NCBI GenBank assembly: GCA_017506865.1
Contig: JAFCMP010000013.1
Location: 1,426,001 to 1,490,000, forward strand
Length of the DNA stretch: 64,000 nucleotides
Direction of reading: 5' to 3'
DNA from: Tribonema minus
Taxonomy: Eukaryota; Sar; Xanthophyceae; Tribonematales; Tribonemataceae
This document shows, piece after piece, positions 18,054 through 63,720 of this stretch; the stretch's first letter is position 1, and every line of letters begins with the position of its first letter. The notes under the pieces are model-generated. The model saw only the letters and a program-made list of their open reading frames with translations, was not told the DNA's origin and searched no databases. Both the position numbers and the translations under genes were made by a program.

Positions 18054-21000
18054 ATGGAGCGCTCTGCGGAGCTGCGCCGGCGGCTGTCGGAAAGCAGCGC
18101 GGAGCAGCTCGTCGCTGTTTTGCACCAGCTCATCACATCTGGTGCACTGAACGAGTCAGCCCTGCTGCAAACTCTCACCACAATTTGTGAGCCACAGCAA
18201 GGCAATGGCAATGGCACTGCGGCGCCCGCTAAGCGAGCGAAGCTGGAAAGTGGCTCTAGCATCGTGGCGGTCGCCACCAGCGCGGGACAGCAGCAGGCCA
18301 GCCCAGCGCTCGATCACGCTCGCAAGGTGTGCTGCTAGTCGACTGCAATTTTGTCACTACTCAGCAGCATAGCACCTGAATATGCTGTGGGTCCTTGAAG
18401 CAGCCGTTGAGATTCAGCGTTGCAGACCGGATCTGCACCTTCTGTTGCAGCCAGAAGACAATTTCGATACAAAAACTAAACATTGAAGTTGCGGAGGAGA
18501 AGTTGTGCGGAGTTACCGCATACGATGAAGCATCAAACAATCGGCCTGGCTTGCGCAAAAGGGGAAACGGTGGCTTGTAGACCACGTCTCACTGTTTCCG
18601 TCCCTCACAGTTGAAAGGTATTGTTGTTCAGAGACATGCGTGGTGCTTCATCTGGGTGCAGCACCTACAGTATCGCATGACTTCAACCCGCCCAAAGCCA
18701 AGTTGGCTTTGTAATACAATTGCTGCAGTGCCATGGGCACCTACCTGTAGCTTTTCTTGAGGTCTTGCTCAACGCATATAATTGTTTTGGAGGTGATGAT
18801 CTGCCACTCCTCGAGACACGTCACTGAGGTGTAGTGTCAGCCGCATCAGTTGCGCAAGAAACCAACCGCCCAGACACACTGCATTCCGTATGCCAGCGAA
18901 CCGCTATAACCGCAGCAGCCTGGCTGCGTACGCCGTGCCGCGCCTGTCATGCGCAGCATGCCGCGGTGCAGCCGCACGCTGCAGACGGCGGCGCAGCAGC
19001 AGCGGCGCCTGCGCCGGCAGCAGCAGCGGCGGCGCAGGCAGCAGCGGGCAGTGGCGGCGCCAGGGCCAAGCCAGGGAAGAAGGGCGGCGCCGCTAGCGGC
19101 AAGGGCAAAGGCGGGAAGAAGGCGCTGGGGGGCGCGAATGGGATGGACTGGTCCAAGTACAGGCAGCGGCACATTGCCATAAAGATCATGTACAATGGGG
19201 AGCAGTACAGCGGCCTGGCAACGCAGGTGACGAGCCACAATGTCGTACTTCAAGCATGAAGCATGAGGTGATGTTTTGTCCCTTCTGGAAGTTGATTGCT
19301 TTGTCGCGCACAAATTTGAGCACCAGTTGTACAAGAAGCGGCTACGGAAGCGCAGGGTAGCGGTGTAGACGTTTCACCTGGGCTTTGCAGTATACGAGTG
19401 CACGGCGTAGAGATCAAAAGAAGAATATACAATATCCTGTTCTGTGGTCATCAACTCTGAAGTTCGCAGAATCACCATCTCTTCAAGTCGTACTGCTGTC
19501 AGTGTCAGCACTCAAACGCATACTTCACAGTGGACGAGCAATAGGCGTAGACAGTGGTCATTGTCATGATGCCACTCCTTCGTCTGCGTGCGGTACAGGG
19601 GCGCCCAGCAAGATTATGCGCGTTGTGGCAAGAGCTGCTGCCACATTTGTGTGCAGTGAAGCGCGCTTTCGCACTGCACAGTGTCCACGTCGACTTCTTG
19701 GCGCACTATCAGCAGCTGCTCCTGATGCTACAATGGGCCAAGCGCAAAAAGTCAATCCATGCATCTGCAAGCCCACAACTCAAACAGGATTGTGGTATGC
19801 AATGCCATGCCCTGCTTTCACGCAAATCCTATGCTCAGGGGCTGCGGCCACCCAACTGCAGTGGCAGTTACAAGTCTCACAGTGGCGATTACAGAGTTCT
19901 TCATCAACCTCGCTCAACTGCTTCTACGGCGTTATCCTGGTGCCTGCATCAAGCACTGTCGTCGTGGACAGCAATTACGTGTGGATCGCGTAGAACAGCT
20001 CCTTTCAGATAGTCTTTTGCGATACGCGTCTGCATCGGGAACAGCGTTCTCGCAACACGGCTCGGCAGCACGCAGATGGTGTCCGCTTCCGTCACAGCGT
20101 CACACGGTTGATGCCAGCAGCTATATGCTGACGCGCCTGCTGCTGCCTCATACGCACCCCGTGCATGCGCGCGCAGACGCCGGATGGAGTGCGGCTGTGC
20201 GACGAGAGCGTGGAGCGTCACCTCTTTGAGGCGCTGGAAAAGGTGAAGGGGAGGGCAGCATTTTGGCCTAGGGTCAGAGGGGTTTGAGATAGGTTCACAT
20301 TAGGGGTGGGGTGGAGTTATAGCTGGATGCAGGGTTTGTGTCAAGAGTTTGCTTCCCTCTCCTGGCTTCGGCTACTTCACAAGAGCGTGGAGCGTCACCT
20401 CTTTGAGGCCCTGGAAAAGGTAGGGGCGGCGGTCAGCTCTAGTATCTGTGTCAGAGAGGGATGAGGAAGGGGATAGATTACGGTCAGAGTAAGTATTGTA
20501 GCTCAATGTAGCGTGTGTGTCAAAGTTTGACCCCTTCTCATGGCTTCAGCTGTTTCATGAGAGCGTGGAGCGTCACTTCTTTGAGGCCCTGGACAAGGTG
20601 AGGGGGGGCAGCAGTCAGGCCAAAGGTTTGTGTCAGAGAGGTTTGAGGAAGGGCTCAGGTTAGGGGTATTGACAGTTCCAGGATTTGTGTCAGAGCTAAC
20701 TGGCGGCCCCCCTCCCCCTCCCCTGACTGTAGCTTCAGCTGCTGTGCCTACCTAAGTGCGACCTGCACACAACGATGGGAGTTTTGAGCTTACGCGAGGT
20801 TCGAACCCTGCTCGTGAGCCCATTGAATTGAAGCCTACTTCGTACCTGCAACGCGTGCCCATCCCTGTACGCTGATCGCGTCCCGCCGCAGGCGCTCGCC
20901 GCGCGCGTGTGTCGCGACAGTGCTCAGCGCGCTCACGACTTTGCAGGATGCCCATTGATGTTCGAGCACGTGTGCTGACGTGCTCTGTGCATTGTGCGTC

Positions 21001-22303
21001 TGCTGCTGCGGCTATCAAAGCAAGCGCCTGGACACCAGTTGTTCGACTACATACCGCGTCCGTGCCGTGCAAATGCATCGTCGCCTGCACTGCCCGCCCT
21101 CCGTCGCTGCTGCGCTGCTCAGGGTTAGGGTTCAAGTTGGTGCACCCAGCTGCATGTGCTCCTGACGCAGCAGCATTTTGACGCACCAGCGTGTAACATA
21201 GCTAGCACCACATCATTAGTGCAGTTCGCTTCTTTCTAGCCAGCACCACGTCATTAGTGCGGTTCACTTCTTTCTTGCACTAAACCAGCATGCCTCATAG
21301 CCAGCAACACGGTTTGCCTCTCTTCCGCGGTGCGCAGGTGCGGCTTATCGCGGACAGACCGTCCATGGGCTACTCGCGCTGCGGGCGCACAGACAAGGGT
21401 GTGTCAGCGCTCGGCCAGGTCAGTGCTCTGCTGCCATTCTATGCCTACATGCCTCCCTGCAGTCCAAAGCATACCTAACTGGTCTTTCACCTTGCCGTCC
21501 AACCTAGCATGCCTACCACCCACAGTCCAAACTAGTGTACCAACCTTAATCCAAATCAGCATACCTGAAGTTCAACTCAGTGTGACTTCCTACAAAACCT
21601 TCGTCCAGTTTACCATATGTATTCGCTATCAGCCTAGCATACACTGCGGCGCAACTGGTGTGCGCGCAACAGCCGCGAGCAGCCTATTGCACAGCCAGGT
21701 CAGCGCTCTGCCAGAGTCTGCACCAATGCATGCCTGCCTAAACAGCGGGGTTTGTTGTTTGCGCACGACGCCATGAAGTGTGTGTCAGCGCTCGGGCTTG
21801 TGGCGTACATACCAATTGCGTGCACAGATGGTTTCTGTGCGGTCTTCATGGCGCACGAAGTTAGGGTTAGGGTTATGGTTATGGTGAGGGTCAGGATGAG
21901 AATAAGGAGTAGTGATTCTCACAAGCACCAGTCAGCCTGGCAGCTGCAACGCTTGTGTATGAACTTCCTGATGAAGTTGTGCACTTGCCCGTGTCCTCAC
22001 CTTCGCCTCGTTGCCATCACACTGTACATCTTTATTGTTCTGCGGCATATGAACACCTATTTTGCTGATATTTGCGTGCAGGTTCTGGCACTCAGGGTGC
22101 GATCGGCCTTCCCCGCGGGTAGCGGCCCCCTGCCGGCGCACGCGCAGGACCCCCTGCAAGCTATGGAGGGTGCCAACAGAACCTCAACAGGTGACGCCCC
22201 GCGCACTGGCGCACCCCTTATATCGATCGGGCAGAGTGCAGCGTTAGTTGGGAGTGCAGCTACAGTACAACTGGTGTGTGTGCTACAGGGCGGAGAGAGA
22301 CGC

Positions 22304-22339
<36 letters not shown>

Positions 22340-25300
22340 CCTGCCCTGACAGGTCCTGCCCTGACAGATGATGCTCAGTGCTCAGGCGGGTGGAGTGCTC
22401 AGCGCGCGCGTCGACGCGCGGGCAGGAAACGCGCGGCCGCCCGCAGACGCCACGTGCCTCAGTAGGCACAGCTACAGCTTGCCGCACGACGCCTGACAGG
22501 CTTTGATGTTGCTCAGCTGTGAGCGCACTCCGGCCTGTCACTGCGCAAGCTTAGGCTCAGGTTAGAGTTTACGATTAGTGTTACTGTTAGGGTTAGGTAG
22601 GCACGCACTTTCTTATTCCGCACCCTGCGGGGATGCTTGCGCGAGCCGCTCTCGATTGCAGTCAGCGGTGGAGCGTCTCATGCGCAACATCCCTCGACAT
22701 TGCGCTCTCCGCAAGGACTTACTTCCAGCGGAGATTGGCAGCGTATTCGGTCTGCGTGAGAGCGAGGGCCCTGACTGTAACCGTATCTTGAGGTCTTCTA
22801 GCGCCTCACGGCGGAATGAGCCGCGCACTCTGCCGCACCCCATGATTCTAGTACTGCACAGCTGCGGCGTTGCAGGTTGGGCGTGTTGCATAGGCCAGTT
22901 CCGATTAGGGCTAGGATTGGGGTGAGGGCAGCGCCGCGTGGTGAGCGCTGCTGCATGCGCGCGCGGGTCCGCTGAGCACCCACGTCGCATATCCACATCA
23001 AAATTGCACTTTTCTTTTCGTTTTTTTGTAAACAAGTTTTAGTGTACATTCGTCGGCTGGTATGACAGTGCGTCTCGATGAAGCCTTTGTCGCTGCTACA
23101 TACATTCATTGGCCATTATGACAGCGCGTCTCGCGCATTGTGCTGCGCTGCAGACGGCGCCGGCGTCGCCGATGGTGATGCTCAGGGAAGCAAGAACAAA
23201 GAGAAGGCGCTGGTGGAGCTGGACTTCTGCGGCATGCTGAACCGAGCGCTGCCGCAGGACATCAGGCAAGTAGGGCTAGGGTTAGGGCTGAAATTTAGGG
23301 TTTGGGTTGCGGCATTGCTGAACTGAGCGCTGCTGCAGGACATCAGGCAAGAAGGGTTAGGGTTACGGTCAGGGATGAGTTGTTGGGTTAGGGTTGCAGC
23401 ACTGCTGAATCGAGCGCTGCCATAGGACATGGGTACCAGGGTCAGTTTTAGGTTTACAATTCAAGGTTAGGGTTGCTGAACAGAGCGCTGCCGCAGGACA
23501 TCAGGCAAGTAGGGTTAGTGTTAGGGATTAGATATAGGGCTAAAGTTGCAATAGCTGAATCGAGCGCTGCCGCATGACATCAGGTAAACAGGGTTAGGGT
23601 TAGGGCTGAGATTTAGGGCGAGGGTCACGGCACGCCGGACCAATGCTGCCTCAAGACATCGTGTGGTGGTAGGGATGGGATTAGGGTTCTGCGTGAGCGT
23701 TGTGGCATGCCGCATTGAGTTTGTGGCGCAGTTCCGTAATCAGCACTTTGCTACCTGCTGTTGAAATATGCGACCAACAGCATGCGCGTATCTCTGTGTC
23801 CCTTCGTGCAGTCAAGGGCTTCCGCTGCTAAGTGCTGCTCAGTCACCAGTGCTGCGTAACCCCCCCCCCCCCCCCCCCCCCCCCCCTCCATCCTCACTGG
23901 CAGCGTCCTAGCGTGGGCTCAGTCACCAGTGCTGAGCACCTCCCCGCCCCCCTGTCCATGATCGCTCGCAGCGTCCTATGTAGCGTGGGCTCAGTCAACA
24001 GTGCTGAGCACCCCACCCCACCCTCTCCACCCTTGCTCGCAGGGTCTTAGCGTTGTGTTAAAAGTGCTTCCAGTGCTGCTGCTAAGTGCTGCTTGGGCAC
24101 CAGTGCTCCCCCCCCCCCCCCCCTTTCACACCGGTGACAAGTATACCCCCCCCCCCCCCCCCCTCCGTCTCACCCCTGCAGGGTCCTAGCGTGGGCGCCC
24201 GTGACAGACGAGTTCAGCGCGCGCTTCAGCTGCCGCGAGCGCATATACCGCTACTTCTTCATCCGCAAGAACAGGTGGGCGATCGAGCATACATGTACAT
24301 CTATGTGTGCGTATACCGCTACTTCCGCAAGAATAGGTGGGCAGGCGAGCACGAGCTCATGTATGCATGTGTGCATTGGGTATTGGGACACTGGAGTTGA
24401 AAGTGAATTACTGGGTCGGGGTTAAGCCTGTTGGCCTTTACAGTACCTGCAGCTTCATGTACATACATGTAGCTTCATACAAAAGCATATGCTTAGGTTT
24501 TTAGGCCTTTAGCGTTAAAGTTAGGGTAGTGCATCTACCGCTACTTCTTCGTTCGCAAGAACAGGTGGGCGAGCGAGCACGAGTTCATTTATGCACGTGT
24601 GCGTGGGGATTGAACACTGGAGTTGAAAGCAAATTATTGGGTCAGGGTTATGGACCGTTGGCTTTCCACTCCTGTAATCTTATCAAAGTTCATGCAGCTT
24701 CATGCATAAGTAGGTGTGTCGATTGTCAGGATCTTAGGGTTACAGTCAGGGGTAAGGGTAGAAGTAGGGTTAAGGTATGGTTGTGGACTGGTGGTGGCTA
24801 CCACACGCCTTGTACACAGATCCATCTGAGCAAGAAACAGAAGTCGAGGCTGCCGCCAGCTCTGCCATGTTTGCTGTGGTTCGACTGCTGCGTTGCCCAC
24901 GAAACTTTAGACGCATTGGATACTTCAATACATTTCGAGACTCAAACGCAAGGGCAGAAAGGTGGTACGTAGAGCCGGTGCGCCGTGAATTGCGGGCCCC
25001 TATTTGAAGGGGCGCTCAAATGGCTGCATGTAGCTGCCGCAGGCGTGGCAGTGCTCGTCAGCATGTCTAAAACTTCAAATGTCTTGTATGGAAGTGCGGG
25101 GGTATTTTCTTGGCTCTTTCGCAAGTATATAAACATACGACATGTGCATGTTGCTCGCAGCACGACAGAGCGCGTTTTGCAGCAGCGCGTCTGCACTTGA
25201 GCCGTACATACAAGCACATCGCTTGTCCTGCCCCTCACACACACTGTTGCTCCTGCGTTGCTCGACATTACCACCATCGTTACCATGGGGCCTGGTACCG

Positions 25301-28300
25301 CTGAGTCAGCCATTGGCACCATATGACGTCACGTCACACTCTGGCATGCCACCGATGCAGGGACATAGAGACCAAATCATGCATTGGCACAACTGTGATG
25401 CCACGTCACACTCTGGCGTGCCGCCAATGCAGGGACATAGATACCAAATCATGCATTGGCATATGACGTCACGTTACACCGTGCTGTGCCACCAATGCAG
25501 GGACATAGAGGCGACGAACCGGGCGGCGCGCATGTGCAGGGACAAAGTCTAATTCACGTGTTTTCCAGCCCCTCTCACGCACTGTTGCTCCTGCGTTGCT
25601 TGACATGCCAACATTCTCGCCATGGGGTCAGGTACCGCTGAATCATGCATTGGCACCTCATGACGCCAAGTAACCCTCTGGCGTGCCACTAATGCAGGGA
25701 CATAGCGGCCATGGACCGAGCGGCGCGCATGTTTGTGGGCAAGCACGACTTCCGCAACCTGTGCAAGATGGACACGGGCAACGTCACGTGCTTCACCAGG
25801 TGCGCGAGCAACTGCTTGTCTGCGCATACATGCTGCATCAGTGCAGCACCGCCGGCGAGAGCTGAAACTGCAGAGGTCAAGAGAAACGACACAAAGAAAG
25901 TCTGAGTTACGCGACAGAGCTCGTGCTTAGTGCGCAGAGTGCGCAGTGTTTGTGCCGCCGCGTGCCAAGAACAGGCAAGCGTGCGGGCGACGTCTGCTGC
26001 TTTCAGTTACAGCCACCATGCATCACGGCTCGAACGTTGAACGTTGTCTCGCCCGTCGGCAGGTACCTGTGCCCTGCGGGAGCAGATAGTCTTTCTGCCA
26101 TGCCCTGCCAGGGCATATATGACATTTCTGATGTATGTTTAGCGTCATGATCCCTGAACCACGGCAATGCAATCCTTGTTGTGTACGCCTTGCGCCAGGA
26201 TGCCGCTGTTGGATGACTCACGCCATGCCTGTGCGCTGCTTGAGACGTTGCGGAAGCAGCCCACGTATCTCACCACGCCAGCAATGTTACGCCGGCGCCG
26301 GTTTAGATGATTCAGGCAACGAGGCAGCCTAAATGCCAGCGCCTCCTCGCACATCGCACAAGGACAAACTTCAAGTTTGGTGCTTGAAGTACATGCATGC
26401 GTGCCCTCCGATCCGCCCTTATCACTACTCGCCTTGTTGTCCAATGATGTTTTCAATGTCAGGAACGTTGCAGAAGCATCTGTGGCGCCCGTCAGGGGCG
26501 CAGGCTTCTACCAGCACAAATATCGTTACAGCACTCACAGTGTGCCTTGCTGTTGCTAGACGTACATATACATACACAGTCTCTAAGCCGCTTCTATTTG
26601 GCCACATCGTCGATGCCAGGAACATTGCGGAAGCGTCTGTGGTGCCCGTCGGCGGCGAGGGCTTCTACCAGCTGTGCAAGTACGAGGTCCGGGGGCAGTC
26701 GTTCCTCTGGCACATGGTGAGCAGCCTTTGTCTGAAGTTGTTGTTGTCGTCACCTCTTGTCTCGCTGGCGCACGTGTCATGTACATTCCGGCAGCCAGCA
26801 GTACGTACTTCCATGTATCCAGGATCAGGCAGGGGGGCAAACAATGTCAGGAACATTGCAGAAGCGTCTGTGGTGCCCGTGGGCGGCGAGGGCTTCTACC
26901 AGCTGTGCAAGTACGAGGTCCGGGGCAGTCATTCCTCTGGCACATGGTGAGGAGCCTGTGAAGTGTGTATGAATTATACTTGAAGTTATCCACTCTGCTG
27001 ACGATGATGTGACGCATACACACGAACCTCAAATGAGGTACGTGCACAGTGTATTGCACGCATACATGCTGCAAAGTATGTTTATTTGAAGCTGTCACTC
27101 GTGTCGCACTGACGCGTCGCGCCGGCGCACGCCTCACATAGCAGTCCACAGCGGGAACATGCGCCAGCGGTACATGTGTATTCAGGGTTCAGGTCAGGGG
27201 GCAGTCATTCCCCGGCACACAGTGAGCGATGCACTCTTGATATACATGCTCGACATTCGTACGAGTGTGCCACGCGATGCGGTGCCGTTGATACGTATTG
27301 CCAATGCCGATAACGGCGAAGGCGGGCACTTTCACGCAAGCGTGTGTGCTTGCGATAGGCAGCGGCGTTTAGGTTAAGGTTAGGTAGGGTTAGCAGAGGG
27401 TATGTCCTCGCCACGAGGTTCCTGGCACCGGTAAACAATGACGTACAAACTGATAGCAACAGTGAAGCCCCTCGTGGTGCAGATCCGCTGCTATAACACT
27501 GCTGGCGAAGTCTGCGGATGCTTTACGGGGTCTTCTACTGCGGCATCCTTCAGCAGCAAGATCATCCGGCGATGCCGGCGCGTAGGCAGTGGTATAGTGC
27601 GAGTCTTGCCTCCTCTGTGAGTGTAGGTCGTATGTCCATTGTTCCCATACATACATACCAGGCCTGCATGCTAATGCTGGGGCAAAGGCAGCGATGCGAG
27701 TCTTGCCTCCTCTGTGAGTGTAGGTCGCATGTCAAAGGCAGCGATGCGAGTCTTGCCTCCTCTGTGAGTGTAGGTCGCATGTCCGCCGCTCCCATACATA
27801 CATACCAGGCCTGCATCCTCATCCGAGCGCAGCTCGGCGCGGACGAACGCCGCTCCATTCCAGTGCTCTACGTGTGCGCGGGGCATCACCAGATGATCGT
27901 GCTGCTGAAGGTTGCCGAGATAGAGGAACCCCGTGAAGAATCCGCAGACTTCGCCAGCATCGCTGTATCGCGGCGCGCGCGGCGCAGGTGACAGACGACA
28001 CAGGCGCATGTATAGGGTTGCACGAAAATTTACTTGGCCACACAAATAGGGCGTGTCTGGGGCGTGTTTGGCAACCAGGAATACATCTTGAGCAAACCTC
28101 AACATGATAACATGCTGCGCGAAGGGCGCGTTTGTGGCGCATACGGTGAGTCTGCTCGCTCCAAGCATACAGTCCGCCACAGAAGGGGCACTTGAACTTA
28201 GAATTAAACTTCAAAAGACGCTTTTGTGCAACCCTACACATGTACACAGGCCTGGCCCTGTGTACATCCTGAAGTAAAACCCCAGGAGCGGTTGCAGAGC

Positions 28301-40310: not shown

Positions 40311-40319
40311 GGCCTTCAC

Positions 40320-42703: not shown

Positions 42704-43093
42704 GTACTATTTGCCTGTCATTCGCTCGCACGTATGAAAGTACTCACACAGAACATGAGTGACATATTTGGAAACTACTGAGCATCGAGGCCCTGCTTGT
42801 GACACACACCTGGCCAAAAGCACGCGAGAGTGGTGTTGCAGTCACTGCAGCCAGCGCATATGTCATGCGGGTGTATCTTCTTCTGGGCCCCTCCCCTTCC
42901 CCCCATTTGGCCCTTTAGGGGGGTATGTAAGAGGGGGAGTCCCAGACAGAGTAAACTTGGAGAAGTTTTTCTACATCAAACTTCAACATCATGATGTCGC
43001 GACTTTTTGGATCTGATCGGAATTCAGCCGCGGCGGCGCTAAAAGCGAGGCAAACAGGTGGCGGTGTTGGCGTTGCATTGGCTGTGAGCAGCC
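42704..43093. promoter_or_regulatory. Upstream region of the ABCG gene
   Basis: Positional promoter/5' UTR of the following gene. No TATA motif was recognised. Confidence 0.35.
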
Positions 43094-55000: not shown

Positions 55001-58000
55001 GGGTAGGCATGTATCATGTTCCCATGGTAACAGAACGGGTCGCTGTACGCGGACCAGTTGAGCGCTGCTGCTTGGGCTGAGGGTAGGTAGGCATGTATCG
55101 TGTTCCCACGGTACGCGCAGGTATCGTGTTCCCAAGGTATGCGTGTGGAGGTCACCGCAGAGAACGGGTCGCTGTACGCGGACCAGGTGAGCACCGCTGC
55201 ATGAGCAGAGGGTAGGCATGTATCATGTTCGCAAGGTACACTCTGCGCGGAGAATAGGTCGCTGTACGCGGACCAGGTGAGCGCTGCTGCGCTTGCAGGG
55301 TAGGCATGTATGTCTGTCTCCGAAGGTATCTTTGTCTCTGAAGGTACGCCTGTGATGGAGATGACTGCGGAAATCGGGTCGCTGTACGCAGACCTGGTGA
55401 GCGCTGCTGCGCTTGCAGAGGGTAGGCATGTTTCTCTGTCTCCTAAGGTATTTTTGTCTCCGAAGGCACCCCTGTGTTGGAAGTGGCCGCGGAGAACGGG
55501 TCGCTGTATGCGGATGGAGTGAGAGCGCTGCTGCATGGGCAGAGGGTGGGCATGTAGAAGCAACATGTTCCCAAGGCACACGCAGCGCGGAGCAGGCGTC
55601 GATGTAGGCGAGCGCTGCCGCATGGGCAGAGGATATATAAGCATGTGTCATGTTCCCAAGGTATACGCGGCGGAGGTGACTGCCGAAAAGGGGCTCGCTG
55701 TATTGGTGGTCTGCTGCGCGGGCCACCGGGGTGACGTGAGCAGGCATGAACATGGGTACATAAGGTAGGTAGTCACCAGGGCTAGCGTCTAAAATAAACT
55801 CTTGCGCCACACACATTGCGCCAGCGTGTTGCGCCAGTTGCGCCAGCTGCCCCGGCAAGTGACTCGTGGCGCAACTGGCGATACTCACACACTTACTCAC
55901 GAGTATTACTTATTACTCGCGAGTTTACTCGCGAGTCTTGCCTAGGGTTAGTGCTTTGAACTAGGGCTAGTCAGCCCGTAGCCCTAACCCTAGCCCTCAT
56001 GTAAGCTCTATGGGCCCTAATAGTGACTCTAGAAGCAGAAGCCTTAATAAGAGTTGCGCCAGTTGCGCCATGGCTAAACTTGTTTAGCCAGGGCTCAAAA
56101 CCCAAAGCCAGTTGCGCCAAGGCCGTCTGAGTTTAGACGCTAGCCCTGGTAGTCAGATGCGTGGACCGCAGGCGGGCACATGTGAAACGGTACTCGATCT
56201 GCAATTTCAACCTGGACGCCCCCTGAACGCCCTCCACTTGTTGCGCGCCGGAAAGCGGAGCCGGGCCGCGTGGCAGCGCACACGGCTCAGAACTTTTGAG
56301 GACACACCCACCTACTTTGCTAGAAAAATCCATTCATGTTTTTTTTTTTTTTTTTCAGGAGTATATGTTCTAGATGTTTAGAAATTGTCAGTTTTCAAAA
56401 CTTGTCGGATTTAAATTGTAATATGTGAAAAATCAAGGTGTGTGTTCTATAAGCCATTGCATTCACTACTCGTTTCCGTGACCTTGCGCGCACGCGCAGA
56501 CGGAGGCGGGCTGCCGGGCTGCGCGCCGCCACGCTCCGCTTAGGACAGTGAGGACACCCACCTTCAAGTGTTCACTCAACACCTAAACTTCAACCACTCG
56601 CTTTGACGAACTTCCGCGCATGCGTAGACGGAAGTGGGCCGAGCGCCGCCACGCACCGCTTAGGACAGTGAGGAAAACCCACTTTATCAATCAGTCACTG
56701 CTTGCTTGAACTTCAACTACTCATTTGAGACAAACTTCCGCCACGCATACGCAGACGGAGGCGGGGCGCGTGCTGCCGCGTACGGCGCAGGACTTCGAGG
56801 ACACGTGGCGCGCGAGCGACGGCTACAAGGCCCTCATGCAGGAGCTCGAGACGCCGCCCAACAAAGACCACCAGGTCAGGAGTCATTATGGAACGACCTA
56901 CCTTTCAAGAGCATGTGTTTTTTTTTGTTTTTAGAGGTCAGGGGTCATTATAGAACGATATACCTTTCAAGAACACGTATTTGTTGTTCTTAGAGGCTAC
57001 ATGCAGGAGCTCGAAGCTCCGCCCAACAAAGACCACCAGGTCAGGGGTTGAACGTCAGTCATCATACATCAAAAAAGACCCGGTTGGGGGTGGAACGTCA
57101 GTCAGTATGGACGGTCTACCTTACAAGAGCACGTGCTTATTATTTTTCCAGGCTAACTGCAGGAGCTCGAGACGCTGCGCAACAAAGACCACCAGGTTAG
57201 GGGTTTAACGGCAGTCATTATAGGACGAGATACCTCTCAAGAGCATGCCATGTTGTTTTTCCAGGCTACATGCAGGAGCCCAAGGCGTCGCCCAACAAAG
57301 AGGGGTCGATGTGCGTCAGTATAGGACAGTCTGCCTCGCAAGAGCACGTATTTGTCATTTTTCCAGGCTACAGGGCCCTTGTGCAGGAGCCCGAGTCGCC
57401 GCCCAACAAAGTACACCAACTTCGCGGTTCAATGTCAGCCAGTATACTCAGCCAGTATACAGTCAGCCACTGTACGGCCAAGCATTTCCCTGTAAATAAA
57501 AGACACGTTTCTGCATTGCTTTCAGCAGCTGCGGACGCTGTAGCTGAATAACCGCCAGGGCCGCGAGGGGTCCGCGGTTCGGCTTCAGCCATAGATGGGA
57601 GCAAGTGCCTGAGTGTTGAGTGCGCAGATGCAACTTTTCGGAGCACATCAGCAAGGTACCACCTCAGCAGGTTCAATGCTGAGGCTGAGAATCAGCACCA
57701 TCATTCACCGACACAGACGTCGACAACAACAACGCACAGGTGAAGTTCTTCAACTCGTCGTCAAGCACTGACACTCCACGCCCCCCTCCCCCCCACAGTG
57801 GCGCCCCAACCAGGCGAAGCTGTACGCGGGCACGTGGCTGTACCACTTCAAGGTCTGCGCGGGCAAGCACTTCAGCCTGTTCCAGCGCGACACGGCGTAC
57901 ATCCGCACGCAGCTGCTCACTGCCGCCATGATGAGCCTGGTCATGGGTGCGTATGTATGCGTGTATGCGCATTGCTCAGAGTTAGGGGTAGGGTTAGGCT

Positions 58001-61000
58001 AGGATTATGAGTGGGGCTAGGTCATGAGTATGTAGCCTGTTCCAGCGCGACACGGCGTACATCCGCACGCAGCTGCTCACCGCCACCATGATGAGCCTGG
58101 TCATGGGTACGTATGTACGTGTGTGCTCATCGCTTAGGGTTCAGGGTTAGTGTCAGAATGAAGGCTAGATTAAAGTAAGGGTTTAGGGTTAGGGTCAGGG
58201 TTGGAGTTATTGTTGTGTGCCTCGCAATTAAGTGGAGGGGGAGGCGGGCTCCTCACAGAGCTTCAGCAACGGCGGCGATCATGTACTGCTCTGGCCAGTG
58301 GGTCGTCGAGCGTGACATGACTGCCACCACAGTAGCTCGCTCATCATGTTTGCGCTCAACCCCCCCCCTGTCCGAGGCGATGCTGCCCCATCATGAACTG
58401 CCATTGCGAGGCCATCTTCAAAGGCCGCGTCGTTGGGGCTGAGCTCTCAATAAAGATTTTTTTCCTTTCAAAGTGCTATGATCTACTAGAATCTCGTTCA
58501 AAGGTGTCGTCAACCAACAGTAGATGCTTCTCATTGTTTCACGCTGCGGCAATCGGTTCATGATGCCTGCGATGGTGTATCGCCGGCCGCGAGCTCTGCC
58601 TGATCTCCGCTGCCAGTGTCCATCTTCAACCTGCCTGTGGATGCCATTAACTTCAACTTAACTTCAAGTCATTGCTCCATCTTCGTGTCAGCCCCGAAGG
58701 ATAGGGCCCCCCCATTTGCGCGGGAAGAAGTAGCACCCACTCACGGCAGCGCTCCCCCTCTCACTCATGCGCCGCCGCCCTACGGACCTCGCCCTATAAC
58801 GGGGTTATAGAACGGGGGTATAGAACGGGGGTTAGGGTGGGGGCGGGGGGTATTGCGGAAACTGGGGTTGATGCAGTGGCTGCTGCGGCATCGCCGCAAT
58901 GCTGCTCAGCTGCATAGGAAGTGGGCGCGGTCCATAGGGGGGCGGCGCATGTGTGAGTTGCGGAGCGCTGCCGCGGGTAGGCGCTACTTCTCGATGCGCG
59001 AATGGGGGGCCCCTATCCTTCGGGGGCGGCATAGGCAGAGGCTGCTTGCCGTCCCTCACCAGCCACAAATTCACCCTCGCTATGACATCAGCAACTTTTG
59101 TCGCTTGTGCCACCGCCAATGGGCACTGTACGCGGCCACCCTGGTAATGTAAAACCCACTGAGCAACCCCGTGCTCGACTAGGCCATTCCAGTCCCCCGC
59201 ATCCAAATTACACACCGCAGTGCAGCGATCACAAAGCGACGCGCGCGCCCAGATTACCCAGATGAAAAAGATATTTGCATGAGCGCAGCAGCTTTGCGGG
59301 CCAGGGCCTTCAGAGCTGACTGAATCCTGAGCGTACATTGGTTTGTGCAATCTTCCTATGACATCTCTATTCATTTATAAAAATACCGTGTACCATATGA
59401 TTGTTGGCCGATCAAGCATGAATTCGTTTGCACAACCACTCCATTATAATATATATATATATTGTCGGCGTTGTTGGCTAATAATACCATCTGTGATGGC
59501 GTGTCCCTTGTTCCGTCGCTCGCAGGCTCCATCTTCCTCGACCTCCCTGCATGCCATCAGCTTCTTCAAGTTATCACTTCATCTTCACGCCAGTCCGCAC
59601 TGCAATGCAACAATCATGTGCCAATGATATCCGTGATGGCGTGTCCCTCGCTTCACTGCAGGCTCCATCTTTTGGCTTATACTACTGTCTGTGATCATTC
59701 CCGCCATCACTCTTATACCTGAAAAACTATTGGCTGATAATACCATTCGTGATGGCGTGTCCCTCGCTTTGCTGCAGGCTCCATCTTCTTTGACCTCCCC
59801 GCGGACGCCATCAACTCGAAGTTTGGCATGATGTTCTTCTCGCTGCTCTTCCTCTCACTCAACGGCATGGCCCAGGTGCCGGTGGCCATTGAGAACCGCC
59901 ACGTCTTCTACAAGCAGCACCAGCAGGTATGCGCATCATGTCAACGCCGACACTGCTTGCAGATACATCTGTACCTTGAAGTATGCTATGCTTTGAAAGA
60001 AATTGTCCTGCAAGTGCCGCGTCTACTACAAGCAGCAGCACCAGCAGCTATGCTTGCAGTGGCGACTACCGCTTGCAGGTGTATGCTATCCTTCGACATA
60101 CGTTCGCCATTCCACACGTGTGTAGAATGTTATTGTCACTAAATACGTAGTATGTTCATCTGCAGCCTGAGAATGTCAGCATTCAGAAGCACGCCTCGCG
60201 TGGCGACGGTAAGTACATGTGTATTGCAAAGGCGAGGATGTTGACGACCGCCACGCCTCTACAAGCAGCACCAGCAGGTATACAAAACGGCACCGGGAAC
60301 TACTGCTTGCAGGTGTAGCTTGCAGTGTGATACATGTGCTTTGAAATCCGCCTGCAACCGCCACGTCTTCTACAAGCAGCACCAGCAGGTATGCGCGCAA
60401 TGACGACCCAACGACACGGTTTCTACCCAGCAAGCGCCCGCTGCGCAGGTCTGCGTGCAGGCGCTGCTTGATCATGCTTACCCTGACAACTATACCTGCC
60501 ATGAATCTGATAACGTATGCCCCCCCCACACACACACCGCGGAATACCTGCCCTGAAACTGATACAACCCCCCCCCCCCCCCCCCCCCCCACACCACGAC
60601 AGGGTTTCTGACCCGCGAGCGCGGACGTCGCCGCTCGGGTCTGCTTGTTGCTATTACTGATGCACGCCCTGACTGCATCTCTGCTCTGAAAAGTGATACA
60701 TACCCCCCCCCCCTTCCCCCTCCCAACGGAAGGGGTTCTACCCGGCGAGCGCTGACGTGGCCGCGCAGGTGTGCGTACAGGCGCTGCAGGGCATCGGTGC
60801 GACGACCCTCTTTGCGCCAATACTGACAATACCTGCATTGAAACTGATACATACCCGCCCCCCCCCCCCCCTTCCCCTTTTTTCCTCCCAATGTCAGGGT
60901 TTCTACCCCGCGAGCGCCGACGTTGCCGCGCAGGTCTGCGTGCAGGCGCTGCAGGGCATCGGCGAGACGACGCTCTTCGCGCCGATACTGTACTTCATGG

Positions 61001-63335
61001 TGCACCTCGAGCGCACGGCGCAGAACTTCTTTGTCTTCTACGCGATGATCCTCGTGCTCAACCTCAACATGGCGGCGTACTTCCGCCTCGTCGCGGCGAT
61101 CATGCCCAATTTCAGCATCGCGCAGAGCTTCGCGGGCGTGACGCTCGTGTTCATCGTCCTCTTCTGCGGCTTCCTCGTGCCGGAGCCGGACATTGTCCGT
61201 GAGTGCCCCTGGAAAACTGTACTTGAAGTATTACAGTGTTAAATTCAAACACTTTGTTCAACAAGAAAGGACAGGCGACCCTGGAATATTGTACTCGAAG
61301 TAGAACAAAATGAAAATATCATTATTTTTGTTTTTCTTACCCTCGTAAAATTAAAACATCAATTTATTTGGTCTTCTTGCCCTCGTGTCCATCGTCCTCT
61401 TCTGCGGCTTCCTCGTGCCGGAGCCAGACATTGTCTGTGAGTGCCCCTGGAGATTTGGAAATATTGTACCTTTGAAAACAAGGATGAAAGACGTCCCATT
61501 TGAGTGCTGACTGAAGTCTGTAGCCTAGCCTGCTCCGCAGCCCAGCTCGAACGACCACTCCATCACTGCCGTCCGCCTTTTGCTCCGCCCAGACAACGAT
61601 TCTCTCTTGGGCAAAATTAGTGAACCATTCATGTTGGTATTGTGATGCGCTCTTTTTCTCTCGCATTAACATTGTCGTGCGTTGCGTGCTCACGCTCCTC
61701 CCCACCCCCCCCGTGTGCCCTCTCCCCCTCGGCAGCCGTCTTCATCTGGATCTACTGGATCAACCCCATCTCGTGGGCGTTCCGCACGCTCGTGCTCAAC
61801 GAGTTCCTGTCCCCGTTCTACAAGGACACGTGCTCCGTGGAGGTGCCCGCGGGAGCCGCCTGCCCCCTCTCGTGAGTACTTTGAATTTGTTGCAAGCGTC
61901 ACCTTGACACTGCACCTATATCAAGTTGAAGTACTTGAAACTTATGTTGAACATGCACTGCTCTCGTGAGTGCCTCAACGAGTTTCTGTCCCTGTTCCAC
62001 GAGGACACGTGCTCCGTCGAGGTTCCAGCGGGGACCACGTGCCCTCTCTCGTGAGTACTTTGCGCATGTTGCGAGCGTCACCCGAACACTGAAGAAGTTG
62101 AAGTACTTCGTACTTTGAATTACTGTTGAACATGCACTGCTCTCGAGAGTGCCTGGTGCACGGGATGAGCGTCGCCTCGATGCCCTGCACCCATGTCAAC
62201 TTGTTGAAGTACTTCACAAGTACTGCTGAACATGTACTGCTCTCATGAGTGCCTCGCGCACGCAATGGACCGTCGCATTGATACGTGCACCTGTGTAGAG
62301 TTGTTGGAAGTTGGAAGACTTCAAATTACTGTCGAACATGCACTGCTCTCGTAGGTGCCTCGCGCACGCGATGCGCGCCGCCTTGACGCCCTGCACCCCT
62401 GTAAATTTTGTTGAACTACTTTACAAAGAAGTGTTGAACAATCATTCAAGGCTGTGCTCACTGTCCCAGCGGTGAGCCATGCTTGGGCCCGCTCGCGCGC
62501 ACCTACTGCAGTAGCGTGCGGCTTACCATACAGCTGCCAGACCGAAAGCGTCGGAGAGCGTGCGGCATTTGCAACAGCATAGCAGCGCTCAACGCCTGCA
62601 AAGATGCAGTGCTCAGATGGTCGCCGAGAAGTGCACTCGTGCAAGTATGCGGCGACGAGCATGCTGCGGTGCACCGCACCCCCCGTTGGCGAGGAACCTG
62701 CTTCAGACAGTGACGCACCGCTGCGGCAGCGCTCAAGCGCTGCAAGCTGCAGCAGTTCGCGCGTCGCCAGAGCTCCCGCGCCAGAGGCAGTAGCAGTCTG
62801 GGGGACGCGGCGCAGTGGCTAGGGTTAGGGTCAGCCAACCCCAACCAACTCTTATTCTAATCCTGCTCCCAGCAGCACGTTATCGCCCTCACAACATTCC
62901 TGCGTTGCCTTTCGTTCTGCTGTGCGTTGCTGCTGCGCGCGCTTGCACAGGCTGTCCGACAGCCTGAGGGGCACGTGACGTGCTTAGGGTTGAATCAGCT
63001 AACCCTACGCCTAACCCTAACCCTAACTCTGCTCCCAGCAGCACGCCATTGCCCTCAAGAGAACGAACCAAAAGATCGTAGAGCTCCAGATGACAAGGAG
63101 TGGTTGGCCGCAAGTGCCTTCCGCCAATAACCGTGGTCACCTCATTATACCCCTGCGCTGCCTTTTCTTCTGCTGTGCACTGCTGCTGCTGCGCGCGCGC
63201 GTGCGCAGGCTGTCCGACGCCGTGCTGGGGAGCTACGGCTTCAAGACGGAGAGCGCGTGGATTGTGGGCGGCATCATATTTGTGCTCGGGCTGTGGGTGC
63301 TGACAGTCGCGTCCATCGCCATCACGCTGACCTAC
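43094..63335 (+). CDS. ABCG/PDR-like half-transporter, 18 exons, 3' end open
   Basis: A membrane ATPase with the NBD-then-TMD order of the ABCG family. Exons: 43094-43180, 44753-44912, 45843-45940, 46624-46737, 47809-47938, 49084-49250, 50032-50190, 51506-51565, 52030-52078, 52709-52836, 53706-53795, 54653-54775, 56755-56874, 57799-57946, 59778-59926, 60898-61198, 61736-61871, 63209-63335. All phases join, giving 782 codons without a stop. Walker A is GPPGCGKSS, the Q-loop AYVQQTDRH, the signature GVSGGERRR, Walker B VYLMDS, the D-loop GLDSST and the ABCG-type switch segment LLQPQPEVYALFD. Then come transmembrane helices in exons 14-18 (LLTAAMMSLVMG; MMFFSLLFLSLNG; FFVFYAMILVLNL; GVTLVFIVLFCGF; VGGIIFVLGLWVL) and FYKQ between helices. 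The wording is closest to PDR-like ABCG proteins of oomycetes, algae and plants. The substrate is unknown. It must dimerise to work. A weak candidate final exon starts at 63830 and stays open to the window end. Confidence 0.9.
44011..44320 (+). repeat. ~248-bp spaced direct repeat in ABCG intron 1
   Basis: GCGGTGCGCA[C/T][C/T]GCTCAGCATG followed by AAACCGCCGCAACTGCCTCA occurs at about 44010 and 44258, both inside the first intron. Confidence 0.8.
44345..44495 (+). repeat. Dispersed repeat family, copy A
   Basis: It contains AGATCGTAGAGCTGCAGG, then ATGCCTTCCACCAATAACCG, then GGCCACGAGCCAAACAGTGCC. Further copies lie at about 44565-44680 (5'-truncated), 54419-54550 and 63056-63140 (3'-truncated). 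All are in one orientation and in introns of the same gene. Class unknown (MITE- or SINE-like). On the minus strand a fragment can be translated (TTVIGGRH), which may be residual coding. Confidence 0.75.
44518..44560 (+). repeat. ABCG exon 2 acceptor-side echo
   Basis: GTGCCGCGCAG|GACTC occurs here with an intact AG and again at the real junction (44742-44757), about 204 bp downstream. Confidence 0.75.
44565..44680 (+). repeat. Dispersed repeat family, copy B (truncated)
   Basis: It starts within AACCGCAAATGCCTTCCACC and continues through GGCCACGAGCCAAACAGCGCC. It lacks the AGATCGTAGAGC head found in copy A. Confidence 0.75.
44990..45260 (+). repeat. ABCG exon 2 donor-side echoes (3)
   Basis: Copies of the exon end (GATGACTC..TGCCGCCTGAAG|GTAT) occur at about 45015-45055, 45108-45150 and 45210-45250. 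Each is preceded by a GTAGGG[C/T][A/G]CA word. The middle copy has GC in place of the GT donor. Confidence 0.8.
45530..45842 (+). repeat. ABCG exon 3 acceptor-side echoes
   Basis: GCTTCGCACGCTGC..CAGGCAGGAAGGTCGC followed by GACGA at about 45668-45710 copies the exon 3 junction (CAG|ACAGGAAGGTCGCAACGA). A weaker copy lies near 45540-45572. Confidence 0.7.
46738..46995 (+). repeat. ABCG exon 4 donor-side echoes (2)
   Basis: ACCAGCTCGGAGC-CAC and the ATTTCATGAAGG end recur at about 46816-46860. A more eroded copy (ACCAGCTCGGTGCC) lies at about 46919-46985. The real donor is CATGAAG|GTGCGT. Confidence 0.78.
47630..47808 (+). repeat. ABCG exon 5 acceptor-side echoes (2)
   Basis: CAG|GTTGGC-GA-C-CTGA-GTGCCTG occurs at about 47631 and 47703, before the real junction CAG|GTCGGCGGAGCGCTGATG at 47806. 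The nearer copy is the better match. Confidence 0.82.
47939..48305 (+). repeat. ABCG exon 5 donor-side echoes (3)
   Basis: CACGCTGACGCTGGTCATCG followed by GTGAGCA recurs at about 48052, 48165 (with the longer exon end GGCGTCTTCAAGCCCGG) and 48267. Each is followed by GTTGAAGTTGATGTTTG-type intron sequence. The period is about 105-115 bp. Confidence 0.87.
48776..48806 (+). repeat. Interstitial telomere-like (TTAGGG)n
   Basis: About four perfect tandem TTAGGG units within ABCG intron 5. It is not near a contig end and is on the coding strand as the G-rich strand. Confidence 0.9.
48918..49083 (+). repeat. ABCG exon 6 acceptor-side echo (Walker A copy)
   Basis: GGCCCCCCCGGCTGCGGCAA then GAGCTCC at about 48928 repeats the P-loop coding start. 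Its upstream AG is lost (CCGCTGGCC instead of CGCAGGCC), so it cannot be used as drawn. Confidence 0.82.
49084..49250 (+). CDS. ABCG exon 6: Walker A
   Basis: The exon completes a split Gly codon and reads PPGCGKSSLLKLLAGQI, i.e. the P-loop. It continues to SGDILYNGQ and ends AAYVQQ, the start of the Q-loop, which exon 7 completes with TDRH. Confidence 0.92.
49251..49460 (+). repeat. ABCG exon 6 donor-side echoes (2)
   Basis: GCGAGGCCAAAAACGCGCCG...TACGTGCAGCAG|GTATGT lies at about 49300-49362, and a shorter GAGGTTGCCGCCTACATGCA copy with a GTACGT donor at about 49420-49450. Confidence 0.85.
49862..50031 (+). repeat. ABCG exon 7 acceptor-side echo
   Basis: TTCAG|ACGGACAGGCACGTCGC through GACCATGGTCTT is an almost exact 50-nt copy of the exon start at 49860-49915, then diverges. 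Both it and the real site are preceded by C-rich tracts. Confidence 0.88.
50191..50735 (+). repeat. ABCG exon 7 donor-side echo gradient
   Basis: The first copy (about 50251-50350) is almost identical over 80 exon bases plus donor. Later units at about 50410, 50520, 50600 and 50690 retain only GGTGGACAAG..GGTGACGCTCGCC-like words and the ATTCATGAATTCATG spacer. This is a clear decay with distance. Confidence 0.85.
52030..52078 (+). CDS. ABCG exon 9: ABC signature
   Basis: A 49-nt micro-exon encoding VLTRGVSGGERRRVTLG (the last Gly is split). GVSGGERRR is the PDR-type signature. It is one of the smallest exons and, unlike most others, I saw no clear echoes of it. Confidence 0.9.
52250..52708 (+). 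repeat. ABCG exon 10 acceptor-side echoes (3)
   Basis: Copies of CGCAGGCGAAATGCTTGCGG occur at about 52273 (shortest), 52411 and 52561 (longest, with GGCAGTCAGGACGT). The period is about 145-150 bp before the real junction at 52706-52709. Confidence 0.87.
52709..52836 (+). CDS. ABCG exon 10: Walker B with Glu-to-Ser change
   Basis: It encodes EMLAGSQDVYLMDSISNGLD followed by SSTTYDIVSTMKK. The position after the Walker B Asp is Ser (codon TCC at the DS pair) where active ABC ATPases have Glu (family form LMDEIS or FLDEIS). The rest of the D-loop is normal. Confidence 0.9.
53000..53046 (+). repeat. Interstitial telomere-like (CCCTAA)n
   Basis: About eight CCCTAA-type units (one CCTAA variant) immediately after an exon 10 echo and 24 bp before the MITE. 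The orientation is opposite to the run at 48776. Confidence 0.9.
53071..53293 (+). mobile_element. MITE copy 2 (TA-flanked)
   Basis: A 223-bp relative of 28015-28234 with ends GGGTGGCAC / GTGCAACCC and TA on both sides. Internal words are shared (GCCAACCAGGAA, CTTGAGCAAACCTC, GAAGGGCG). It sits inside ABCG intron 10. Confidence 0.85.
53620..53705 (+). repeat. ABCG exon 11 acceptor-side echo
   Basis: GTTCAG|GTGGTGGC-GTGCT at about 53623-53645 copies the junction TCAG|GTGGTGGCGCTGCT at 53702. The surrounding TAACTGTCA..TAACTGCC words are also duplicated. Confidence 0.75.
54243..54300 (+). repeat. ABCG exon 12 acceptor-side echo
   Basis: GCAG|GGCGAGCAGAAG-GC-TG followed by CTGCCGTACTTTGAGTCCAT repeats the first 45 exon bases, then diverges after CGGC. 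Confidence 0.87.
54419..54550 (+). repeat. Dispersed repeat family, copy C
   Basis: It contains AAAGATCGTAGAGCACTAGG, then GTGCCTTCCACCAATAAT, then GTGGCCACGAGTTAAACAGTG. The most diverged of the longer copies. Confidence 0.75.
54776..55745 (+). repeat. ABCG exon 12 donor-side echo array (about eight)
   Basis: GAACGGGTCGCTGTACGCGG followed by ACCAG|GTGAGCG and variants recurs near 54833, 54953, 55034, 55160, 55251, 55371, 55493 and, eroded, 55590-55690. Units are 80-125 bp and share GCTGCTGCG..GCAGAGGGTAGGCATGTAT intron starts. It is the longest array in the window. Most copies keep the donor. Confidence 0.9.
55780..56150 (+). repeat. GCGCCAGTTGCGCCA-rich segment
   Basis: The word TTGCGCCAG is repeated many times at 55802-55880 and 56050-56125, and the opening phrase GGGCTAGCGTCTAAA near 55779 returns inverted as GTTTAGACGCTAGCCCT near 56132. 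The segment is thus bounded by inverted ends of about 15-20 bp and may be a small insertion. Confidence 0.65.
56150..56754 (+). repeat. ABCG exon 13 acceptor-side echoes (3)
   Basis: CGCAGACGGAGGCGGGC at about 56495 and GCGTAGACGGAAGTGGGC at about 56618 repeat the junction CGCAG|ACGGAGGCGGGGCGCG. An older copy starts near 56166. The CTTAGGACAGTGAGGA-ACCCAC segment behind them is an eroded version of the exon (GCGCAGGACTTCGAGGACAC). Confidence 0.8.
56875..57425 (+). repeat. ABCG exon 13 donor-side echoes (4)
   Basis: GGCTACATGCAGGAGC-CGA followed by CCGCCCAACAAAGACCACCA and GGT recurs at about 56994, 57151, 57263 and 57367. The first two keep CCAG|GT; the last two have lost it. The intron-start word TACCT[T/C]-CAAGAGCA is repeated too. 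Confidence 0.87.
57947..58112 (+). repeat. ABCG exon 14 donor-side echo
   Basis: An almost exact copy (about 70 nt) of the exon end from GCCTGTTCCAGCGCGACACG through GTCATGG|GTACGT at 58036-58112, one base different in the coding part. The unit is about 163 bp. Confidence 0.88.
59470..59777 (+). repeat. ABCG exon 15 acceptor-side echoes (2)
   Basis: GTGATGGCGTGTCCCT..GCAG|GCTCCATCTTC occurs at about 59494-59535 and 59633-59672, before the real one at 59750-59790. The first carries CTCGACCTCCCTGC. Units are about 120-140 bp. Confidence 0.87.
59927..60400 (+). repeat. ABCG exon 15 donor-side echoes (3)
   Basis: CTACAAGCAGCA..CCAGCAG|GTAT copies lie at about 60015-60045 (CTATGC, donor lost), 60255-60282 and 60360-60395. 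The furthest, AACCGCCACGTCTTCTACAA, is the best preserved, an exception to the usual gradient. Confidence 0.83.
60410..60897 (+). repeat. ABCG exon 16 acceptor-side echoes (3) with C-runs
   Basis: GGTTTCTACCC-GC-AGCGCC to GTCTGCGTGCAGGCGCTGC occurs at about 60417, 60601 and 60734. The nearest keeps about 95 exon bases (to TTTGCGCCAATACTG). C-runs at 60568-60590, about 60700 and about 60855 precede copies or the true acceptor. Confidence 0.85.
61199..61445 (+). repeat. ABCG exon 16 donor-side echo
   Basis: TCGTCCTCTTCTGCGGCTTC to GACATTGTC-GTGAGTGCCC at about 61391-61446 is almost exact, 240 bp after the original. Confidence 0.87.
61872..62400 (+). repeat. ABCG exon 17 donor-side echoes
   Basis: A copy from CAACGAGTTTCTGTCCCTGT to TGCCCTCTCTC|GTGAGTACTT lies at about 61976-62058. 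Shorter CTGCTCTCGTGAGTGCCTC-type units lie near 61960, 62137, 62237 and 62341. Each is preceded by GTTGAACATG. Confidence 0.82.
62925..63208 (+). repeat. ABCG exon 18 acceptor-side echo
   Basis: TGCTGCTGCGCGCGCTTGCA followed by CAG|GCTGTCCGAC at about 62927-62960 repeats the junction at 63183-63217, with the intron-end tract included. Confidence 0.8.
63056..63140 (+). repeat. Dispersed repeat family, copy D (truncated)
   Basis: It contains AAAAGATCGTAGAGCTCCAG and GTGCCTTCCGCCAATAACCG, and stops before the GGCCACGAG part. Confidence 0.75.
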
Positions 63336-63720
63336 GTGAGTCTCTCCGCTGCGCGCTTCACTTCTTGAAGAATGACTCCATCGCATGTGCACAAATCCAC
63401 GTTGTCATTCGCTCACTACACTCAAGCTTTCAACTTCTTGAATAAGTATTACTCCATCGCCACCACGCTGACCTACGAGAGGCTCTCCGCCGCGCGCTTC
63501 ATCCCAACTGCTTCTCGAAGTATTACGTCAAGTACTTCAAATGACTACTTGAAGTTTTGAAGTAGCACCTCCAGTGATTAGGGGTCGCGCTGTTTTTGCT
63601 GACGGTCGCGTCCATCGCCATCGCGCTGACTACGTGAGTCTCTCAGCCGCGCGGAGCGGCCGCGCGCTGCATCCCAACTGCTTATTGAAGTGGTACTTCG
63701 AGCGGCTGCGCGCTGCATCC
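63336..63720 (+). repeat. ABCG exon 18 donor-side echoes (2-3)
   Basis: CTCCATCGCCACCACGCTGA followed by CCTACGAGAGGCTCTCCGCC lies at about 63451-63497 (donor changed to GAGAGG). GACGGTCGCGTCCATCGCCA to CTACGTGAGTCTCTC lies at about 63601-63642 with one base missing. Confidence 0.82.

Follow-up and report, generated by a model that had tools for sequence, protein, structure and literature searches.

How introns come by their sequence is an open question, and the proposals met in the accessible parts of the literature rest on single events or on transposons. It is raised directly by a 64 kb stretch of Tribonema minus (Xanthophyceae; contig JAFCMP010000013.1, positions 1,426,001 to 1,490,000, of assembly GCA_017506865.1, which holds 158,181,000 bases in 554 contigs), hereafter the window. 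In three of its genes, encoding an ABCG-type ABC transporter, PUS3 and an M50 peptidase, many exon edges recur, together with their splice sites, inside the adjoining introns. These copies, called echoes below, are similar to their source, nearby and in the same orientation, and are by that measure local direct duplications. The reading favoured here, to which we attach a probability of about 0.5, is that exon–intron junctions are hot spots of short direct duplication in this genome.

Using a 40-nt probe for each exon edge (36 exon and 4 intron nucleotides) and accepting copies in the adjoining intron at ≥72 % identity, echoes are found at 30 of the 68 exon edges of the three genes. Donors contribute 20 of these (out of 34) and acceptors 10 (out of 34), with one to five copies each and 51 in total, and dinucleotide-shuffled introns gave no match in 204 scans. 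A looser scan on the final exon edges extends the count to 38 of 68 (20 donors and 18 acceptors), again with no echo in five shuffled sets. The original prediction, made by a model from the letters alone, had placed echoes at nearly every exon border; the echoes are real, but that frequency is too strong. It had also proposed a strict rule, whereby copies of an exon end with its donor lie only downstream and copies of an acceptor with its exon start only upstream, always in gene orientation. In the looser scan 45 donor echoes lie downstream and none upstream, with 28 acceptor echoes upstream and one downstream (45:0 and 29:1 in the same scan with one PUS3 edge provisional). The rule is therefore obeyed by 73 of 74 pairs, with no inverted edge, and is broken once, at PUS3 exon 8. 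In part it is forced by logic, since any donor copy on the upstream side of the donor actually used would itself be exon.

Donor edges recur in their own downstream intron in 19 of 31 cases and in the upstream intron in none of 31, and acceptor edges in the upstream intron in 9 of 31 and in the downstream intron in 1 of 31. Neither class of edge is found in the other introns of its own gene (0/362 for donors, 0/362 for acceptors) or in reverse complement (0/62 for each). Mid-exon 40-mers are matched downstream in 3 of 31 cases and upstream in 1 of 31, and the difference between donor edges and mid-exon probes on the downstream side has p 3.9e-5. Compared with itself, the whole window shows repeats mainly in direct orientation, 135 pairs against 23 inverted ones, and in 98 of the direct pairs the offset is <500 bp. 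For local pairs the blastn counts are 120 direct against 1 inverted, with 0 in shuffles; blastn conceals short offsets, making these counts uninformative on short units.

The analysis rests on 34 exons curated by hand in the three genes, according to reading frame, codon bias and GT–AG sites. Exon codon bias is strong, with a GC share at third positions (GC3) of 0.87 over 991 codons. The gene models are as follows.

44753-63335, + strand: 17-exon gene for an ABC transporter of the ABCG type (start and stop codons unassigned).
ABCG exons 1-9, + strand: 44753-44912, 45843-45940, 46624-46737, 47809-47938, 49084-49250, 50032-50190, 51506-51565, 52030-52078, 52709-52836.
ABCG exons 10-17, + strand: 53706-53795, 54653-54775, 56755-56874, 57799-57946, 59778-59926, 60898-61198, 61736-61871, 63209-63335.
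18828-35465, + strand: PUS3 gene, 12 exons, with exon 1 start and exon 4/5 edges approximate.
PUS3 exons, + strand: 18828-19226, 20177-20242, 21338-21418, 22082-22188, 23154-23265, 24182-24274, 25698-25799, 26620-26716, 29643-29756, 30744-30830, 32385-32534, 35330-35465.
8194-12292, − strand: EGY-like gene (Peptidase_M50), five recognised exons, 12104-12292, 11385-11510, 10316-10449, 9584-9757, 8194-8293.

Joined, the 17 ABCG exons form one 753-aa frame without a stop, and the protein matches the Pfam families ABC_tran (4.3e-19) and ABC2_membrane (1.2e-44). The PUS3 query, which left out exon 12 and part of exons 4-5, is collinear over residues 2-296 of 329 with PDB 9enb, a tRNA pseudouridine(38/39) synthase (E 8.7e-77). 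These intact readings bear out the claim that the outermost intact pair of splice sites stays in use. The join of PUS3 exons 4 and 5 as drawn breaks the frame, so one of those edges is off. The donor of PUS3 exon 5, at 23266, may belong to a GC–AG intron (AG|GCAAGT), and at least one of its echoes also reads AGGCAAG by eye. The joined reading of the third gene matches Peptidase_M50 (2.3e-11), and we take it to be of the EGY type. It had been predicted to lie with the other two within 18054-63720, and is found outside that interval. Its exon 2 (11385-11510) has an apparent internal frame break, which may reflect a sequencing error, a tiny intron or a decayed exon. Rfam and tRNA scans of the window returned no matches.

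The individual echoes and arrays of the three genes include the following.

49191-49367, + strand: donor edge of ABCG exon 5 with a downstream echo at +106, 90 % over 71 bp.
48908-49145, + strand: ABCG exon 5 acceptor edge and its echo 156 bp upstream, 85 % over 82 bp.
50112-50715, + strand: ABCG exon 6 donor echo array, first copy at +141, 97 % over 118 bp, further copies 76-81 %.
52275-52744, + strand: ABCG exon 9 acceptor echo array, upstream.
54730-55754, + strand: ABCG exon 11 donor echo array, period of ~201 (substructure 81/120); the donor-spanning pairs have seven offsets, the smallest +81 and the largest +743.
56465-57447, + strand: ABCG exon 12 echo arrays, acceptor upstream and donor downstream.
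57874-58156, + strand: ABCG exon 13 donor echo, +160, 95 % over 91 bp.
61142-61451, + strand: ABCG exon 15 donor echo, +238, 94 % over 72 bp.
61795-62440, + strand: ABCG exon 16 donor echo array (+179).
20190-20667, + strand: PUS3 exon 2 donor echo array (+177, +355).
29018-30157, + strand: PUS3 exon 9 echoes, acceptor upstream and donor downstream.
32465-33241, + strand: PUS3 exon 11 donor echo array.
26842-26960, + strand: near-whole, frame-shifted copy of PUS3 exon 8, downstream, a stretch 94-95 % identical and the sole counter-example to the direction rule.
12631-12714, − strand: echo of the EGY-like exon 1 acceptor, 421 bp upstream and with its AG intact, 95 % over 112 bp.
10796-11411, − strand: EGY-like exon 2 donor echo array, four copies.

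The last of these clusters, and another beside 30744-30830 in PUS3, were considered as intron-interior and rejected as such, both adjoining exons that the codon scan had missed.

The nearest copy lies at a median distance of 165 bp from its source (interquartile range 140-223, range 81-462, n=30), wider than the units of 70-210 bp first described. In one copy per junction (n=29), aligned runs cover 25-93 bp of exon (median 42) and 0-54 bp of intron, once 110 bp (median 15). Comparison of aligned length with offset in 27 chosen pairs gives a close agreement in 3, a ratio <0.75 in 12 and a ratio >1.2 in 12, the last class representing arrays or alignment overrun, as extension can overrun. Tandem duplication across junctions, as first proposed, stands with regard to direct duplication, whereas a strict head-to-tail arrangement seems to fit some copies only. 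Plain tandems occur at ABCG exon 6 (141 bp), ABCG exon 13 (160 bp) and in CLN3 (175 bp), a gene outside the window; other echoes have spacers. Genome-wide searches with three intronic pieces found one without a second match and two in repeat families. The former is the ABCG exon 15 spacer (61214-61379), for which the search, which skips common words and so leaves rarity unproven, returned no second place. With respect to the families, 53063-53295 and 28007-28256 belong to a high-copy short repeat that we label as resembling a short interspersed nuclear element (SINE) in size (40 scored of 241 candidates). A second short family of ~130 bp is seen at 54421-54551, 63062-63141 and 44348-44692, and in another sampled stretch, L004 (40 scored of 1,465 candidates).

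Several other readings of this anatomy were tried. An abrupt end of intron-side homology caused by filler is weakened, as the exon 15 spacer seems by eye to share sequence with the intron beyond the echo, across a large indel. The figure of 45 % for ungapped intron mismatch is too high because of indels. A conveyor order, with the youngest copy nearest the exon, is unsupported (17 pairs for, 11 against, 6 ties); the best match of an echo is the exon in 18 cases and another echo in 11. Tandem duplication of exons to yield alternative exons is likewise unsupported, the single near-whole copy, that of PUS3 exon 8, being frame-shifted and the other exon runs spanning 25-93 bp.

With regard to the share of intron sequence involved, junction-linked repeats occupy 13,092 of 34,794 intron bases (38 %) in the window genes, and 13,092 of the 14,555 intronic bases that are repeats at all, leaving 1,463 of 34,794 in repeats that touch no exon. 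Merging overlapping repeats gives 37 components, 30 of which touch an exon, in keeping with the more than 25 independent clusters originally counted. Non-genic repeat coverage is 7.7 % over 47,300 bp of chosen stretches that include transposon-like DNA, with 0 to 64 % in each. Expectations were obtained by simulating blind duplication with substitutions, indels (0.16 per substitution, as measured), deletions, real intron lengths and purged exons. Under these settings the share of components at junctions averages 0.35 and reaches at most 0.52 in 12 sets, and a version with growth by insertion gives 0.36 (maximum 0.47). Preference for junctions raises the share to 0.57 when 4-fold and to 0.68 when 8-fold. 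The binomial probability of 30/37 is 1.2e-8 against 0.35 and 2.4e-4 against 0.52. The profile around donors, given as the share of 30-bp windows with an intron copy at ≥80 %, is 0.00 at −120 to −90, then 0.11, 0.26 and 0.47 at −30 to 0, falling to 0.26 at 0 to +30 and 0.06 at +30 to +60, with a peak at about −60 to +30. For the −30 to 0 window, blind simulation gives 0.11, and a 20-fold preference with a 5-fold higher rate gives 0.46, against 0.47 in the data. A bias towards junctions is thus likely, if unproven: the clusters number fewer than 50, the null is simulated and some of the exons are approximate.

Beyond the window, the sample comprises 12 stretches from arbitrary places on other contigs (100 kb) and a CCT gene chosen by family. 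Genes were read in seven of the 13 longer stretches (six arbitrary ones and CCT); the remainder (L006, L008, L009, L010, L012 and L015) were left out owing to coding repeats, low-complexity genes, transposon-like DNA or no recognised gene. Local repeats in the arbitrary stretches form 102 direct and 11 inverted pairs, with 0 in shuffles, part of them coding or low-complexity. Absence of the pattern from other genes had been named as the result that would overturn it; at least one exon-touching cluster is present in six of the seven genes, where 17 edge copies obey the direction rule and none runs against it. If the count is confined to the interval between the outermost recognised exons of each gene, 9 of 10 clusters adjoin or overlap an exon; with flanks included the figure is 11 of 14. 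Of the three that touch none, two lie outside the recognised exons and the third, in L016, ends at an approximate exon start. CLN3 (L011) is echo-rich, and the CCT gene (L016) has one local repeat, counted as interior. Junction-linked repeats make up 3,491 of 22,186 intron bases (16 %) in these genes; with 38 % in the window, the earlier view of local duplication as the main source of intron length is too strong. In genome-wide family searches at protein level, short partial matches stand beside a full exon match at three exons in the TCP1 family and two in kinesin, all on the expected side. These counts are a reading of tables and lower bounds that give no rate, as overlaps below about 20 profile positions are uncounted and short echoes fall below the cut-off.

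The copies decay. Of the 45 donor echoes 32 still have their GT, and of the 29 acceptor echoes 25 have their AG; because neither dinucleotide is retained better than the adjoining exon bases, this is decay and not upkeep of sites. Differences between exon and echo number 31, 25 and 76 at the three codon positions over 1,371 nt. Among codons of the exon parts with a single difference, 62 of 106 are synonymous, against 42 % in neutral simulation, with none of 300 runs as high; a junction-wise bootstrap places the third-position share at 0.475-0.676, which barely excludes the neutral mean of 0.458. Echo-to-echo differences in nine arrays (30/260, 34/260 and 69/260) show the same third-position lean. 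The synonymous excess could possibly stem from diverged-allele origin, from faster synonymous change in exons or from a past coding role.

In the favoured explanation, a segment spanning a splice site would be copied nearby in direct orientation, often with additional spacer DNA in between. The frame would be kept by the outermost splice sites alone, so that these stay in use while the inner copy turns into intron and decays; repeated rounds would build arrays. We infer that the junction excess is mutational in nature. The copies may originate in staggered breaks or paired nicks near junctions that are filled in and end-joined with filler, a route that fits their direct orientation, their closeness and the spacers; its tie to exon edges is put forward as a hypothesis. 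As a conjecture, RNA–DNA hybrids of spliced RNA, ending at exon borders, could place the breaks. More tentative still is the broader suggestion of a mutational process that reads gene structure, perhaps through exon-limited RNA–DNA hybrids or splicing-coupled breaks, with introns growing continuously from their own exon edges and their DNA thereby coming to record the exon layout.

Several observations weigh against junction hot spots. The null is a simulation with guessed rates, in which junction preferences of 1, 4 and 8, and of 1 and 20, were the only ones tried, and the 20-fold run still misfits, its profile around the donor being wider than the observed one on either side. The acceptor peak is weak, at 0.22 in the last 30 bp of the intron against 0.06-0.12 farther in (the intron side being scanned), and the donor profile climbs again to 0.23-0.27 inside the intron. 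Repeats also occur away from recognised exons, at L008 5548-5917 (98 %) and L015 6806-7221, in stretches outside the gene count. Echo density differs strongly between genes, exons in the seven other genes were called from codon bias, and some copies are plain tandems. A history of short introns that later grew could mimic targeting: simulated introns with means of 270-390 bp place 0.77-0.87 of components at junctions with no targeting at all, and those of 200-530 bp, in a version without indels, 0.68-1.00.

This history also forms part of the case for blind short tandem duplication, acting everywhere at a high rate, where exon-internal events are purged and those at junctions or within introns drift. 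Junction copies would then be conspicuous through their conserved exon half, and through formerly short introns whose duplications mostly crossed borders. Direct orientation, the exact tandems, the decay of GT and AG in step with their neighbours and the short-intron simulations all agree with it. At present intron sizes, however, it yields 0.35 (0.52 at most) where 30/37 is observed in the window and 9/10 in the other genes, and 0.11 at the donor edge where 0.47 is observed, so that frequent local duplication alone, as originally invoked, falls short. Furthermore, the echo-poor genes of L004 and L016 have introns of 63-984 bp, meaning that echoes are unnecessary for intron lengthening. Overall, blind duplication is a possible but rather doubtful account. 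Insertion with long target-site duplications, by which a mobile element or filler enters where a staggered cut spans the junction, leaving the echo as its target duplication, would explain why several young echoes are parted from their source by a spacer, and why repeat-family members (53063-53295 and 54421-54551) sit between echo copies of ABCG exons 9 and 11. Against this, some copies have no spacer, the ABCG exon 15 spacer (61214-61379) has no second match in a search that skips common words, and 31 introns compared with ~170 kb of genome show few relatives beyond telomere-like and low-complexity matches; this origin is considered unlikely.

It is less probable again that selection keeps echoes as decoy or backup splice sites. 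The survival of GT in 32/45 and AG in 25/29, and the 62/106 synonymous codons against 42 % under neutrality, would suit such a role, yet the dinucleotides have survived no better than adjacent exon bases. An assembly artefact, for which the 554 contigs of the assembly might speak, is very improbable, as stringent copies differ from their source by 0-28 % plus indels and lie on several contigs, and joined exons yield intact proteins. The poorest candidate is birth of the introns themselves after Rogers, in which an AGGT-holding exon piece is tandemly duplicated, making donor and acceptor copies one unit. The mechanism is known, and in the parts available of two accounts (PMC3443670, PMC4974935) it also leaves intron-internal copies; here, comparison of donor- and acceptor-junction 120-mers of the same intron puts 0 of 31 introns above the 99 % null, old decayed births being invisible to it.

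Other features stand apart from the echoes. TTAGGG occurs in window introns 39 times on the gene strand and 13 times on the complement (p 4e-4), with 13 introns leaning so, 5 the opposite way and 1 tied; in five whole loci (L004, L007, L011, L013 and L014, strands assigned by hand) TTAGGG-type hexamers stand at 42:15, with 25 of the 42 in L007. At 27461-28718, the SINE-like repeat lies within 1.1 kb of sequence bounded on either side by 64-bp direct repeats (87 %), an arrangement that resembles an insertion and its long target duplication. A divergent pair of repeat-protein frames, at 13858-15498 (−) and 15437-16909 (+), consists of 27-residue units (LQWARANGCPW) with an 81-bp period. A transposon-like coding piece (IVLPADAFPVTGYDDPTRHLPL...) is seen at three places, 42131-42706 (−), L009 3171-3296 and L015 622-891, and 1500-5200 holds diverged direct repeats over several hundred bases with inverted copies of one reading frame, perhaps a mobile element. 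L008 6050-7870 carries ubiquitin-like coding units repeated within 2 kb at 90-94 % identity.

Because a measurable part of intron sequence belongs to repeats rooted in the exon edge beside them, intron growth would become a series of datable events, with a signature for which other genomes can be screened. Should the junction bias hold genome-wide, it would point to a mutation process tied to splicing or to exon chromatin. For gene finders the echoes are a warning, as some carry splice sites and coding bias, and the codon scan called several of them coding.

Related arrangements are on record elsewhere. The human 6-16 minisatellite is said to carry repeated splice donors (exon-end plus donor units), Zhuo (2007) reportedly traced human introns to tandem arrays, and work on paired nicks has addressed tandem duplication in plants. 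In mammalian cells, fill-in at staggered breaks is known to generate small tandem duplications (PMC8355091, as far as its available text goes), and resembles the echoes in that a short segment is directly duplicated next to itself at a break; a tie to splice junctions is not described in that text. Introners (PMC9860276, in the portion available) likewise give introns a common, repeatable origin, but are element families dispersed over genes, whereas echoes are local copies of an edge with none in the gene's other introns. Tandem duplication is listed among intron-gain mechanisms in the accessible part of a review (PMC3443670), and intron gain by this route is credited to Hellsten (2011) and to Gao and Lynch (2009), as described in the same portion and in that of PMC4974935. 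It shares with the echoes local direct duplication near splice sites; according to these texts AGGT there provides both splice sites, whereas here an intron's donor unit is unrelated to its acceptor unit. In the potato RdRp gene, tandem duplication across an intron–exon boundary made a new intron (PMC4974935, available part): one gene, one event and a new intron there, against many copies, donors as well as acceptors, several genes and no intron gain seen here. The titles and abstracts listed by searches of open-licence literature yielded no account of gene-wide exon-edge echoes without intron gain. Thus, whilst tandem duplication across a single border is known, what appears to be new here, as far as these searches reach, is gene-wide echoes, at donors and acceptors alike, without the gain of an intron.

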